A stretch of 20,639 nt of DNA from a virus. Of the stretch, positions 2,923 through 10,838 are shown one piece after another. The position numbers and the translations under genes were made by a program. Position 1 is the stretch's first letter. Each line of letters starts with the position of its first letter. Below the pieces are notes generated by a model, which was not told the DNA's origin, made no database searches, and worked only from the letters and a program-made list of their open reading frames with translations. The stretch lies in the IMG/VR virus record IMGVR_UViG_3300035698_014942, positions 1-20,639 of that record; one strand, given 5' to 3'.

Positions 2923-3129
2923 ATGCCAGAATATTATAATAAAGAAGTTAAATCAATTCCTACTAAAGAATATAAATCAACTTCTACTAAAGAACGTAAA
3001 TCAGCTCCTATTAAAGAATATAAACAAACACGAAATGGTAAAGGTGATAAACCGAGAAAAGGTGCTAATTTGTTAAAGTTTCGAAAAAATTTTGATCAGA
3101 TAAACTGGAAATCAAAAAAGATTAAATGA
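2923..3129 (+). CDS. Small basic protein with tandem 8-residue repeats
   Basis: A 68-residue, Lys/Arg-rich protein. The ATG at 2923 is preferred over the in-frame GTG at 2914 because AAAAGG ends eight bases before it. The N-terminal half is built of imperfect 8-residue repeats (KEVKSIPT, KEYKSTST, KERKSAPI, KEYKQTRN) that follow the codon frame, so the DNA is also repeated in 24-base steps (about 2944-3040). The C-terminal half, with GKGDKPRKG, LLKFRKNFDQINW and a basic tail, resembles the end of small phage proteins with a 'GKGDKPR...F..NYD.I' pattern whose function I do not know. Its TGA overlaps the ATG of the next gene (ATGA), so the outer-membrane protein is probably translated by coupling to it. 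A nucleic-acid or membrane-surface role is possible but unproven. Confidence 0.65.
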   Translation: MPEYYNKEVKSIPTKEYKSTSTKERKSAPIKEYKQTRNGKGDKPRKGANLLKFRKNFDQINWKSKKIK

Positions 3130-4028
3130 AAAGATGTTTTTGTGTGAGGTATTTATTAATAATTTTATTACTTTTTGTTACACAAGCTGTATATCCTGGA
3201 ACAATTTCTTTATATGAAGAAAATGATTTTCTTGGAAAAGATGCGACTGGATCATCTACGGATGGGTATTATACTCAAGGGTTTCAAATTAAATATGAAG
3301 ATGATGCTGATTGGGGAATTAAGTTAGCTCAACAAATTTATACACCAGAAAATAAAGACGACCCGAATCCGCAGTACAATGATCGTCCGTATGCGGGTTG
3401 GTTGCATGGAGAATTTTTTAAAAAGACATATAAAGAAAATTACGAAAATTATTATGAATTAGGTATTGGTATAGTGGGTCCAGCCTCATTAGCAGAAGAA
3501 ACACAAACAGGTTTTCATAAATTAATGCATATGGAGCCTCCGATGGGTTGGGAGTGGCAACTTAATAACGAGCCTACTTTACAATTAGCATATTATAGGA
3601 CATATTCAATATTTGTAAATAACTATATAGAATTTCGACCATATGGCGGGGCTAACTTTGGAAATGCTTTGGTAAACGTCGAATTGGGAAACATAATTCG
3701 AGTAGGGTATAATATACCTAAAAATTTTGATCCGGTTATAAGGTTGCTTCAAACTGATAAAACCTTTTGGGATAATGTATATGCTTATGGTTTTATTGGT
3801 GGTAAAGTATATGCTGTTGCTAGAAATATATTTTTAGATGGAAATACATTTAGTCATAATGTTGTTACTGTAGATAAAGAAAATATTGTTGGGGATGGAC
3901 TTTTGGGGTTGTGTTTTGGAATATACGGATTTGAGGCAACAATGACTCATGTAGAAAGAACAAAGGAATTTACCACTCAGAGTAGGGATGAACGATTTGA
4001 TTCTTTACAAATAGGTTATACTTTTTAA
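3126..4028 (+). CDS. LpxR-family lipid A 3'-O-deacylase-like outer-membrane protein
   Basis: A 300-residue protein. It has a clear signal peptide: Lys/Arg at the start, a hydrophobic core YLLIILLLFV at 9-18, and probable cleavage near residue 25. The mature protein follows the LpxR (DUF2219) pattern. It has EENDF at 31-35 (Asn33, Asp34), TDGYYTQGF at 45-53 (Thr50), QQIYTPE then NDRPYAGWL at 85-93, and a GIGIVGP stretch before His131 and GWEWQLNNEP. Asn, Asp, Thr and His at these places match the catalytic residues described for Salmonella LpxR. The protein ends in an aromatic residue (LQIGYTF), the usual signal for outer-membrane barrel assembly. LpxR enzymes remove the 3' acyl chains of lipid A at the cell surface. 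A phage copy could remodel host LPS during infection, for example against superinfection or in lysis; that is inference. The start is coupled (ATGA) to the upstream gene and lacks its own strong ribosome site. Confidence 0.85.
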   Translation: MKRCFCVRYLLIILLLFVTQAVYPGTISLYEENDFLGKDATGSSTDGYYTQGFQIKYEDDADWGIKLAQQIYTPENKDDPNPQYNDRPYAGWLHGEFFKKTYKENYENYYELGIGIVGPASLAEETQTGFHKLMHMEPPMGWEWQLNNEPTLQLAYYRTYSIFVNNYIEFRPYGGANFGNALVNVELGNIIRVGYNIPKNFDPVIRLLQTDKTFWDNVYAYGFIGGKVYAVARNIFLDGNTFSHNVVTVDKENIVGDGLLGLCFGIYGFEATMTHVERTKEFTTQSRDERFDSLQIGYTF

Positions 4029-4037
4029 GTAAATGAA

Positions 4038-4640
4038 TTAGAGTTGTTTTGGTAGAGTTATTGCAATTGGTTGTGGGGCTGGTTGACTAGTTAAAACCTC
4101 TTCTTTTGGTTCTGTAATATTTATAACTCTTTGTTCCTTAATCAATTTTTGTTCTATATCGTCTACAGATTCTACGGTTACATCAGTAGTAATACTTTTT
4201 TTTGATTTTTCTTTGTTATTTAATATTTCTTTAAAGATTTCCTCACGAGTGCTTACAATGTTAATTTGGGTATTACCAGAGTTTATATTAGATACACCTT
4301 TAATTTCTTTGGTTAAGTTTTGCTTCTTATTTTGAATATTTAATTTACTTAAGATTTCGAGGGTTCCATTGGTCGATTTTATCATAGAAGCATAGGCTTC
4401 AATCTCATTTGGGTCAATTGTTTGAGAAACGGCGTTTTTTAGGTCTGTAATAGTCTCAACACCGTCTTGGACGATTTGTTGTGCATTCTTAAGCACAAAA
4501 TCGTTTAGATTGTCGTCAGTAAGGTTAGATGCTGGTTGAACAGAGATCGCCTGTTTTTGAGCTGGAATCGGCATGTTTAATGAAGGCTTAGGGCGTTCTA
4601 GTTTGATATCTTGGATTATCTTTTCAAGTTCTTCATCCAT
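4038..4640 (-). CDS. Probable small terminase subunit (gp16-like)
   Basis: A 200-residue acidic, helical protein read leftward, with AAAGG eight bases before the ATG. The centre reads PNEIEAYASMIKSTNGTLEIL, then a basic stretch, then NTQINIVSTREEIFKEIL. This follows the order seen in T4 gp16, where a helix with 'hMEVFSTLMgqMttTNREIL' is followed by a linker and 'MNIQNATVFmGSPTELMDEI'. Small terminase subunits form a ring that recognises DNA for packaging. The upstream motif TTAAATACTTAAAAAG marks it as late, which fits packaging. The flanks (Pro/Gln-rich N terminus, Pro-rich C terminus) are not diagnostic. Its stop lies nine bases from the stop of the convergent LpxR-like gene. No large terminase gene is visible in the window, so the identity rests on motif order and late control only. 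Confidence 0.45.
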   Translation of the reverse strand: MDEELEKIIQDIKLERPKPSLNMPIPAQKQAISVQPASNLTDDNLNDFVLKNAQQIVQDGVETITDLKNAVSQTIDPNEIEAYASMIKSTNGTLEILSKLNIQNKKQNLTKEIKGVSNINSGNTQINIVSTREEIFKEILNNKEKSKKSITTDVTVESVDDIEQKLIKEQRVINITEPKEEVLTSQPAPQPIAITLPKQL

Positions 4641-7140: not shown

Positions 7141-7216
7141 GCGTGTGTAGTTCAGTTGGTAGAATAGGTGGTTTCCAACCATTCGGTCGTCGGTTCGAGT
7201 CCGACCACACGCTCCA
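7141..7216 (+). tRNA. tRNA-Gly (anticodon TCC)
   Basis: A full cloverleaf. The acceptor GCGTGTG (7141-7147) pairs perfectly with CACACGC (7206-7212). There is a D-arm with GTTGGTA, an anticodon stem GGTGG/CCATT with loop TTTCCAA giving anticodon TCC (reads GGA), and a T-arm with GTTCGAGTC. CCA is encoded at 7214-7216. GGA codons are common in the neighbouring genes, so the tRNA probably supports their translation. It sits in the same direction as, and 15 bases before, the clamp-loader start. Confidence 0.97.
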
Positions 7217-7231
7217 TAGAAAGAAAAACAA

Positions 7232-7879
7232 ATGACAGATTTTAATTCGCTTCTCGTAGAAAAATACAGACCAAAAACTCTTTCTGAAATTGTATTGTCG
7301 AAGCCCAATCGAGATTATTTTGAAAACATTGCAAATCTTAAAGAAATTCCACATTTATTACTGGTAGGTCAACAGGGAATTGGGAAAACATCGATTGCAA
7401 AGATCATAGTTAATGAATTATTAAATTGTCAATACCTTTATATTAATGCTTCTGATGAAAGTGGTATTGACACTATAAGAAATAAGGTTACTAATTTCGT
7501 TCAAACTAAGGCTATTGATGGTAAGTTAAAAGTTGTTTTATTAGACGAATGTTTAGATGAAAATGAAATTGTTTGGATATATCGAGATGGACAAAAACAA
7601 ACAGTAAAAATTAAAGATTTAGATGAAAAAAATGATTTAGTATTATCATTTAATTTTAAGAAAAATCAAGTTGAATGGGTTCCTTTTTTCTTATTATATA
7701 AAGGTTATAGTGACAATTTATATGAAATTGAATTTGAAAATAATGAAAAAATTATTTGTACTGATGACCATAAATGGTATATAAAAAATCAAAATGGAAA
7801 AATAATTAAAATGAAACTCAAAGATATTATGAAAAACGGAATAACATCAATTATTTCTATAAAAAAGAATGGAATCTGA
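7232..7879 (+). CDS. Clamp loader ATPase (gp44-like), N-extein fused to N-terminal intein half
   Basis: A 215-residue product. Residues 1-106 are the start of an AAA+ clamp-loader ATPase: VEKYRPKTLSEIV near the N terminus, Walker A GQQGIGKT (46-53), and Walker B VVLLDE (101-106). Residue 107 is Cys and begins an intein: CLDENEIV is block A, and IICTDDHKW is block B with the T-x2-H motif (intein Thr71, His74). The frame stops at 7877-7879, after 109 intein residues. Without splicing, the protein is cut in the middle of the Walker B DExD signature and would be useless as an ATPase. The other half is at 8200-8955. The start at 7232 follows the tRNA by 15 bases with a weak AGAAAG site. Confidence 0.92.
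   Translation: MTDFNSLLVEKYRPKTLSEIVLSKPNRDYFENIANLKEIPHLLLVGQQGIGKTSIAKIIVNELLNCQYLYINASDESGIDTIRNKVTNFVQTKAIDGKLKVVLLDECLDENEIVWIYRDGQKQTVKIKDLDEKNDLVLSFNFKKNQVEWVPFFLLYKGYSDNLYEIEFENNEKIICTDDHKWYIKNQNGKIIKMKLKDIMKNGITSIISIKKNGI
7550..7876 (+). other. N-terminal half of a split intein (IntN)
   Basis: 109 codons from Cys1 to the last sense codon before the TGA. It has block A (CLDENEIV), a middle part with LVLSFNFKKNQVEWVP, and block B (TDDH at intein 71-74). The length and the order of segments resemble the N halves of known natural split inteins such as NrdJ-1 (about 105 residues). With the C half at 8200-8322 it sums to 150 residues, the size of a mini-intein without an endonuclease domain. 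Confidence 0.8.
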
Positions 7880-8207
7880 CTGAATAATGATATAATCATA
7901 ATTTAGGAATTAAAAAATTTCAAAAATATTGTAAAGAATGTGCTAAAAAATTTGTTTGGTTACATCATAAGCGCCCACCGGAATTGTGTCAAAAATTGTC
8001 TAATATTCTAAATGAACGAAAAAATACTAAAAAAGCAAAAGAAATTTATAAGAGGGTTGGTAAATTAAATTCAAGTGGATAAACGAAAAAAATATATTAA
8101 AATTTTTAAACGTTGATCTCTTAAAAAGCAATTCTGAATATTATAAACAGTTTCAAAAATTAGAAAAAGGAATAAAATATATTCAAAAGGAAGAAATTAA
8201 TGATTTG
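7880..8207 (+). pseudogene. Remnant of a gene, perhaps a homing endonuclease, between the intein halves
   Basis: Two protein-like stretches in different frames fill the gap. 7891-8082 reads HNLGIKKFQKYCKECAKKF, followed by a Lys-rich helical part. 8064-8207 reads KWINEKNILKFLNVDLL, followed by a Lys/Glu-rich helix. The first has no usable start codon and has TAA and TGA just upstream; one indel between 8064 and 8079 would join the two. The Cys pair YCKEC recalls the zinc modules attached to homing endonucleases, but no catalytic motif is readable. Homing endonuclease genes are known to sit between the halves of fractured, split-intein genes, so a decayed copy is the natural reading. An unrelated small gene, or sequencing indels in A-runs, cannot be excluded. 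Confidence 0.45.
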
Positions 8208-8322
8208 TGAATTAAAAATTAAAAATATAAGAAAATTAAATATAAAACGAAAAATATATGATTTACACGTTTTAGGTAATCATAATTTTTTTATTGGAAA
8301 AAATAAAATATTAACGTCGAAT
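8200..8322 (+). other. C-terminal half of a split intein (IntC)
   Basis: 41 codons ending in Asn (8320-8322), followed by the +1 Cys of the extein (8323-8325). The HNFF of block F and the short leading peptide after the ATG look like the C halves of natural split inteins (gp41-1, NrdJ-1). The penultimate residue is Ser, which in other inteins tends to slow Asn cyclisation but does not always stop splicing. Confidence 0.8.
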
Positions 8323-8955
8323 TGTGATGGTATTACATCAATGGCTCAAGGTGCTCTTAGAAATTTAATGGAAGAGTATGCCTCTAATTGTCGATTTATT
8401 TTAACTGGTAATTATAGAAACAAAATTATAGATCCAATTAAATCACGTTGTCAAATGTTTGATCTGACACCAACTATCGAAGATTGTTTTGCTAGGTGTG
8501 TGCAAATTATTAAGCAGGAAAATATTAGAGTTGAAAATGGGCAAAAAGAACGCCTTTCAAATTTAATAAAGTCTGATTATCCAGATCTTCGTAAGATAAT
8601 TAATGATATTCAAAAATATACTATTAATAGTGTATTAAATATACCAGAAAAATTGAATGTTGTTTCGTCGTTTGTTGATAAACTGCTTGACAAAGTTGTT
8701 AATAACGCTAACATATATGAAGTAAGAAAATATGTTATTGAAAATGAAATGCTCTTTTCAAATGATTATCATGGATTATTGAAAGAGTTGTTTGAATCAA
8801 TATATAATAGAGAGTCATTATCAGTGGAAAGCAAAAAAAGGATGTTGTTAGAAGTCGCAAAGAGTATGTACGAACACCAATTTGTGTTAGACAAAGAAAT
8901 TAATTGTTATGCTTGTTTAATTAAATTATTTGAAAGAAAGATATATAAGAATTAA
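8200..8955 (+). CDS. Clamp loader ATPase (gp44-like), C-terminal intein half fused to C-extein
   Basis: A 251-residue product with its own start: ATG at 8200, eight bases after AAGGA. Residues 1-41 are the C-terminal intein half. IYDLHVLGNHNFFI is block F, and ILTSN ends block G with the terminal Asn. The extein resumes at Cys42 with CDGITSMAQGALRNLMEEY, which directly continues the Walker B DE of the other half to give DECD. Sensor 1 (FILTGNY) and the SRC arginine-finger motif (IKSRCQMF) follow, then the helical lid and collar. The C-extein has 210 residues; added to the 106 of the N-extein it makes 316, against 319 in T4 gp44. The residue before the terminal Asn is Ser instead of the usual His. 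The stop lies 22 bases before the thyX start. Confidence 0.92.
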   Translation: MICELKIKNIRKLNIKRKIYDLHVLGNHNFFIGKNKILTSNCDGITSMAQGALRNLMEEYASNCRFILTGNYRNKIIDPIKSRCQMFDLTPTIEDCFARCVQIIKQENIRVENGQKERLSNLIKSDYPDLRKIINDIQKYTINSVLNIPEKLNVVSSFVDKLLDKVVNNANIYEVRKYVIENEMLFSNDYHGLLKELFESIYNRESLSVESKKRMLLEVAKSMYEHQFVLDKEINCYACLIKLFERKIYKN

Positions 8956-10762: not shown

Positions 10763-10838
10763 GCCAGTTTAGCTCAGTTGGCAGAGCAGGGGTTTTGTAA
10801 ACCTCAGGTCGTTGGTTCAAGTCCGACAACTGGCTCCA
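10763..10838 (+). tRNA. tRNA-Thr (anticodon TGT)
   Basis: The acceptor GCCAGTT (10763-10769) pairs perfectly with AACTGGC (10828-10834). D-arm GCTC/GAGC with AGTTGGCA. Anticodon stem GGGGT/ACCTC with loop TTTGTAA, anticodon TGT (reads ACA). T-arm GTTGG/CCGAC with TTCAAGT. CCA is encoded at 10836-10838. The very next base is the end of the stop codon of the convergent leftward gene, so the tRNA and that gene share no spacer. Confidence 0.97.

Follow-up and report, generated by a model that had tools for sequence, protein, structure and literature searches.

A phage clamp loader gene in two pieces, with a probable split intein at its Walker B motif and the remains of a homing endonuclease between the halves

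How might a phage obtain its clamp loader when the gene stops inside the ATPase active site and resumes as a second, separate gene? This is the arrangement at positions 7232-8955 of IMG/VR record IMGVR_UViG_3300035698_014942, a 20.6-kb fragment of a phage genome (20,639 nucleotides, the whole of which was analysed and is called the window below), where gp44, the gene for the clamp loader large subunit, is spread over two neighbouring genes on the plus strand with intein sequence at the broken ends. Our answer is that the gp44 of the window is very probably produced as two proteins that are trans-spliced by a split intein, the latter being part of a once-mobile element whose endonuclease has decayed. 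The anatomy of the locus, its family, the endonuclease relic and the mobility of the relatives come directly out of the computations described below.

Under this model, the two neighbouring genes would each yield a protein, and the intein N part of 109 amino acids (aa) and the intein C part of 41 aa would associate and fold into a single intein domain of the Hedgehog/intein (HINT) type. Trans-splicing would then follow the ordinary class 1 route, that is, an acyl shift at Cys1, transfer to Cys+1, cyclisation of the terminal Asn and a shift to the peptide bond, by which LLDE would be joined to CDG, Walker B rebuilt and a 316-aa gp44 released. The element would have entered the gene as a mobile unit consisting of intein N half, free-standing homing endonuclease gene and intein C half; in the lineage of the window the endonuclease would since have decayed, leaving the split intein stuck and homing lost. 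Because the gene would need splicing, the element could be lost only by exact deletion. We infer from sequence both that splicing takes place and that it is needed, and consider trans-splicing the most likely route to the gp44 of the window.

Two half-genes and an endonuclease relic

The upstream gene, gp44-N (7232-7879; ATG at 7232, stop at 7877-7879), encodes 215 aa, namely an N-extein equivalent to clamp loader residues 1-106 (7232-7549), with Walker A (GQQGIGKT) and with Walker B as far as VVLLDE, followed by the intein N part (7550-7876). The downstream gene, gp44-C (8200-8955; ATG at 8200, stop at 8953-8955; 251 aa), opens with the intein C part (8200-8322), which ends in ...HNFFIGKNKILTSN, and continues from CDG with the 210 residues of the C-extein, equivalent to clamp loader residues 107-316 (8323-8952). 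The first-pass annotation had described two frames holding the halves of one gp44-like ATPase, broken at Walker B, with exteins that add up to 316 residues; on re-reading the sequence all of its coordinates hold, the cut reads LLDE/CDG, and the joined length recomputes to the same value. Both proteins match the gp44 family phrog_168, the N protein at profile positions 9-109 (E value 2e-33) and the C protein at 108-307 (8e-39), and since these positions adjoin, the two halves abut. The joined exteins are about 50% identical over nearly their full length to uninterrupted gp44 genes, and their relatives in 36 IMG/VR loci, mostly single matches spanning approximately residues 1-310, share 46-57% identity in nearly all cases. 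The features of a gp44 clamp loader large subunit are all present, i.e., an RFC-type AAA+ ATPase with Walker A, Walker B and the Gp44 lid, as recognised by phrog_168, AAA and Gp44_lid (the last in the C-extein, E value 3e-11). For a relative in which the halves are fused (L065; loci are referred to by such numbers), the full precursor is predicted to adopt a clamp loader fold that matches the T4 and Pyrococcus clamp loaders.

The intein halves carry complementary and complete motifs on their separate products, which is the make-up of a split intein. The N part begins with Cys1 (codon at 7550) in block A (CLDENEIV) and has the TxxH motif as CTDDH in block B (IICTDDH), and the C part has block F (IYDLHVLGNHNFF) and block G (ILTSN), ends in ...NHNFFIGKNKILTSN with the C-terminal Asn (...LTSN), and is followed by the +1 Cys (codon at 8323). 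Profile searches of both halves, proposed as a check together with the original suggestion of a probable split intein, favour that suggestion: the N part exceeds the cut-off of Pfam Intein_splicing (E value 6.5e-9) and finds the NrdJ-1 split intein in the PDB (E value 2e-4 with the single sequence, 8e-6 with a profile), and the C part partially matches the end of the Pfam model. Against profiles built from relatives only, with the window left out, the halves score 126 bits (N) and 64 bits (C), compared with best scores of 11 and 8 bits, respectively, among 1000 shuffles of each, and none of the 380 stop-to-stop segments in the six frames of the window gave any other match to these profiles. 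Chance resemblance of the intein halves is ruled out by the shuffles and the segment scan. The HINT fold is indicated for the N part by Intein_splicing and was examined on the fused relative L065, whose predicted intein structure (predicted local distance difference test (pLDDT) score 95, predicted template modelling (pTM) score 0.87) has 65 PDB matches at E <= 0.001 with inteins on top, including the NpuDnaB, NpuDnaE, NrdJ-1 and gp41-1 inteins.

The approximately 320 bp between the two genes had at first been taken for a plain gap, which does not stand, since a profile built from the endonucleases of relatives reveals the remains of a homing endonuclease gene there. A fragment without a start codon (7891-8082, plus strand) corresponds to profile positions 96-152 (hmmsearch E value 3e-9), and a tail fragment in another frame (8064-8210, plus strand) corresponds to positions 285-322 (hmmsearch E value 1e-10; tblastn 35 bits). 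Only the middle and the tail of the endonuclease thus remain; the first ~95 positions are missing, as are positions 153-284 with the catalytic motifs, the latter deletion falling between the two fragments, and we regard this endonuclease as dead. In most split relatives, the corresponding open reading frame (ORF) between the halves is ~270-370 aa long, matches phrog_15427 ('endonuclease') with E values of about 1e-18 to 1e-20 and shares the motif FRSSWE...YE...DF...YEIKP; the alignment of these endonucleases has no match in the PDB and only sub-threshold matches in Pfam. That is, the free-standing endonuclease gene between half-genes that characterises the fractured-gene arrangement occurs in most relatives and as a relic in the window, and because the gap is a decayed free-standing endonuclease gene, the window represents an eroded form of that published arrangement. 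Endonuclease remnants are also found at L063 and probably at L116; the split loci L055, L064 and L131 have no endonuclease.

The start of the C half was likewise identified correctly, with its own ATG at 8200 and a Shine-Dalgarno-like AAGGA upstream at 8187-8191 (plus strand). This start overlaps the stop of the relic endonuclease (8210) by 11 nucleotides in phase +1, the same phase in which endonuclease stop and C-half start overlap in 17 of 20 relatives. Given this ancestral phase, the two-gene layout was inherited rather than produced by a recent break.

Mobile relatives at the same site in gp44

Searching IMG/VR phage contigs with the intein N part of the window gave four loci, and subsequent alignment searches gave many more. 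Nearly all matches are gp44 genes interrupted at exactly the point seen in the window (LDE/C...N/CD), with a few weak matches in other genes. After removal of duplicates, 52 distinct loci have the element at this site (45 split, six cis and one cut by the end of its record), a count that includes the window and leaves out L162, which sits in another gene; besides that of the window there are thus about 50 further distinct inteins, ~44 of them split. One related locus, L088 (253-2309), has the same split gp44 with an endonuclease, lies at one end of a contig that was binned as Nitrosarchaeum (JAHFUM010000010.1), and belongs either to an archaeal virus or to a misbinned phage. Among the isolated phages of INPHARED, 2541 records have gp44 matches, and a sample of 40 spread over the ranking consists of single, unbroken pieces throughout; no close match to the intein N part of the window was found in that collection, only weak ones in four records (best 32%). 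The family comprises an empty site, split genes with an intact endonuclease, with a dead one or with none, and fused cis forms, and we take the element of the window to be a worn-down member of this widespread, formerly mobile family.

The movement of the element can be followed in pairs of loci. L051, which has the element, and L168, which lacks it, are 94-95% identical in flanks of 1.5 and 1.0 kb and 97% identical in the exteins, the site being occupied in L051 by a 1341-bp insert. Synonymous divergence (dS) between L051 and L056 is 0.54-0.74 for the exteins and 0.09-0.22 for the insert of intein and endonuclease; the lower value marks the insert as younger than the genes that host it. Within the tree of the exteins, the window lies amid intein-free clamp loaders, and in the intein tree its intein groups with other inteins that have Ser in the penultimate position, some of them in distant exteins (L043, L096, L106, L123), the deeper branches being moderately supported. 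A single extein clade of all intein-bearing alleles is rejected (approximately unbiased test, p 3.5e-6) for alleles sampled around the window, with a second scan around L051 as backing. These computations show that the element of the relatives was mobile.

Selection on the relatives is also evident. The ratio of nonsynonymous to synonymous divergence (dN/dS) in their intein halves is 0.08-0.26, which indicates purifying selection. The +1 residue is Cys in all 50 intein-bearing alleles parsed; among intein-free alleles, it is Cys, Ala, Thr, Val, Phe or Ser in the clade of the window (Cys in 8 of 24 distinct alleles) and Ser or Ala only in the clade of L051 (Cys in 0 of 16). The parser sought an Asn directly followed by a Cys, and such a junction turned up at every locus; a looser parse made earlier gave the same result wherever it located the true junction; one large MAFFT alignment, in which the short intein C parts were misplaced, was left out of the structure work. 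No second gp44 was found in the records of 13 relatives (18-242 kb), which hold the split gp44 only; a need for gp44 would therefore require that the halves be joined. Selection thus says that the inteins of the relatives would splice.

For the window itself, several points weigh against trans-splicing. The residue before the terminal Asn is Ser rather than the penultimate His of class 1 inteins; the intein is ~50% identical to its nearest relatives, and selection within its own lineage is beyond measurement; a search with two exact 30-mers found no second assembly of the locus; and, since the window is a fragment, a second gp44 elsewhere in the genome is possible. The Ser, the fragmentary genome and the dead endonuclease would fit an alternative in which the halves are made but splicing has been lost in this lineage, the locus being in the course of dying or another clamp loader being used. 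We consider this improbable, however, given that the exteins and both intein halves are open with all core residues kept, although the endonuclease has lost most of its length, and that the records of the 13 relatives offer no substitute gp44. Further, the penultimate Ser recurs in loci that carry an endonuclease: it is present in 8 of the 50 loci parsed (Gly in two), i.e., in the window and seven others, most of which have an endonuclease at the site, and the NpuDnaE intein C part likewise ends in ...SN, so that the penultimate His is usual for class 1 but not defining.

Split and cis forms, and the remaining alternatives

The six cis mini-inteins at the Walker B site (L047, L057, L065, L108, L135, L139) all lack an endonuclease, and none of the loci at this site combines a cis intein with an endonuclease. 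In the intein tree, which is unrooted and of modest support, the cis or split state changes at least 5 times, with strongly supported branches uniting cis and split inteins as sisters (L047/L048, L057/L122, L065/L066-L069, L108/L095). The identity of L047 and L048 is 97% as far as the endonuclease gene; L047 lacks this gene, and its halves join in frame. The start Met of the C half in split loci is retained as an internal residue in L047, L057 and L065, and the linker codons of L065 align with the DNA of L069 upstream of its C-half start, inside the end of the endonuclease gene. In another pair, L131 and L152 (99% identity elsewhere), the endonuclease is missing from L131 between copies of a short repeat, and L131 stays split. 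The cis mini-inteins are, then, probably re-fused split inteins. On balance, we lean toward the hypothesis that the mobile form at the gp44 site is the split one, that cis forms arose repeatedly when deletion of the endonuclease joined the halves in frame, and that the window is a snapshot of the passage from split and mobile to endonuclease-dead. We infer the direction from split to cis from these traces, with the tree unrooted and modestly supported; if true, it would run counter to the common view that split inteins are cis inteins that broke.

The cis relatives also bear on a highly unlikely explanation of the locus, namely that an ordinary cis intein, or an ordinary gene, had its frame broken by errors of sequencing or assembly. 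The window is a single contig, the region is very AT-rich (GC ~20%), and six related loci do have a cis mini-intein at the site. Yet every cis relative is without an endonuclease, whereas the window has the residue of one between its halves; ~44 other loci are split at the same place; relatives with intact endonucleases share the same split and the same overlap of stop and start; a start and a Shine-Dalgarno sequence of its own belong to the C half, whose overlap phase is that of the 17 relatives; and elsewhere in the window the long ORFs are intact. Least probable of all is a clamp loader of two non-covalently held pieces that works with no splicing, as T4-like phages have genes in pieces that are functional unspliced (e.g., NrdA of Aeromonas phage Aeh1, encoded by two genes and functional without a self-splicing intron; PMC3653736), since the cut lies inside Walker B, the ends bear complete intein motifs that a two-piece protein would not need, and the invariant +1 Cys is limited to intein-bearing alleles.

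Further inteins were observed in the same and other genes. A second intein lies in Walker A (GTGK/C...HN/T) at L057 (3163-5201), L063 (3917-5102) and L067 (2305-3301), and also at L116, L129 and L146; thus some gp44 genes are cut at two sites. This intein is split in at least L057, with a nuclease-like ORF of its own (3443-4468), and L063. L079 (6257-8554), whose gp44 is also split at Walker B, has another large cis intein in the C-extein after RFILT (C VTGDTK ... SHN/CNYP). At L092 (2105-3590; Klebsiella phage KP13-7), a hypothetical protein near nrdA_1 weakly matches the intein N part of the window (32%); annotated as separate ORFs, this is possibly a split intein in ribonucleotide reductase. 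Around gp44, the window carries a tRNA-Gly(TCC) gene directly upstream of gp44-N (7141-7216), a tRNA-Thr(TGT) gene (10763-10838), a nicotinamide adenine dinucleotide (NAD) salvage gene pair (466-2785; nucleotidyltransferase-Nudix protein and nicotinamide phosphoribosyltransferase) and a strong match to LpxR, an outer-membrane lipid A deacylase family (3126-4028; Pfam E value 1.6e-68), whose product could alter the host surface.

Comparison with known split-intein systems

The first-pass annotation knew of no split intein in gp44, and our search of the open-licence literature, which does not cover the founding 2009 paper of Dassa and colleagues, gave no publication on an intein in phage gp44; as far as searched, the gp44 split intein is previously undescribed. 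The 2009 paper reportedly treats 26 loci. With gp44, the sliding-clamp loader, interrupted at its ATPase active site, would extend the set of phage replication genes whose products need protein trans-splicing. Roughly 50 natural inteins of a single site become available for comparison, and because all stages stand side by side in the family, the life cycle of a split intein and the interconversion of split and cis forms can be read from sequence; the series of decay and re-fusion is probably the part most useful to the specialist. For protein engineering, the intein pairs offer new split inteins, which may be orthogonal.

Among known systems, NpuDnaE is similarly a natural split intein in a replication gene, ends in Ser-Asn and has a similar fold, but has no endonuclease relic between its halves, which lie far apart in the bacterial chromosome. 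Inteins of archaeal RFC small subunits (listed in PMC5874633) likewise have a clamp loader ATPase as host protein, but in archaeal hosts. Closer is the split PolB intein of jumbo phage MIJ3 (PMC6892783), where a phage replication protein is also encoded as two genes with a split intein and, as in the gp44 relatives, an endonuclease ORF between them, although the host gene differs and the MIJ3 endonuclease belongs to a different family (HNH). The closest resemblance is to the fractured genes of the gp41-1, NrdJ-1, IMPDH-1 and NrdA types (Dassa et al. 2009, as cited in PMC3653736 and PMC7090010), in which a phage replication or nucleotide gene is divided into two genes, each with an intein half, and with which the window relatives share the free-standing endonuclease gene between the halves; unlike in these named cases, the host gene in the window is gp44, the cut falls at Walker B and the endonuclease has decayed.
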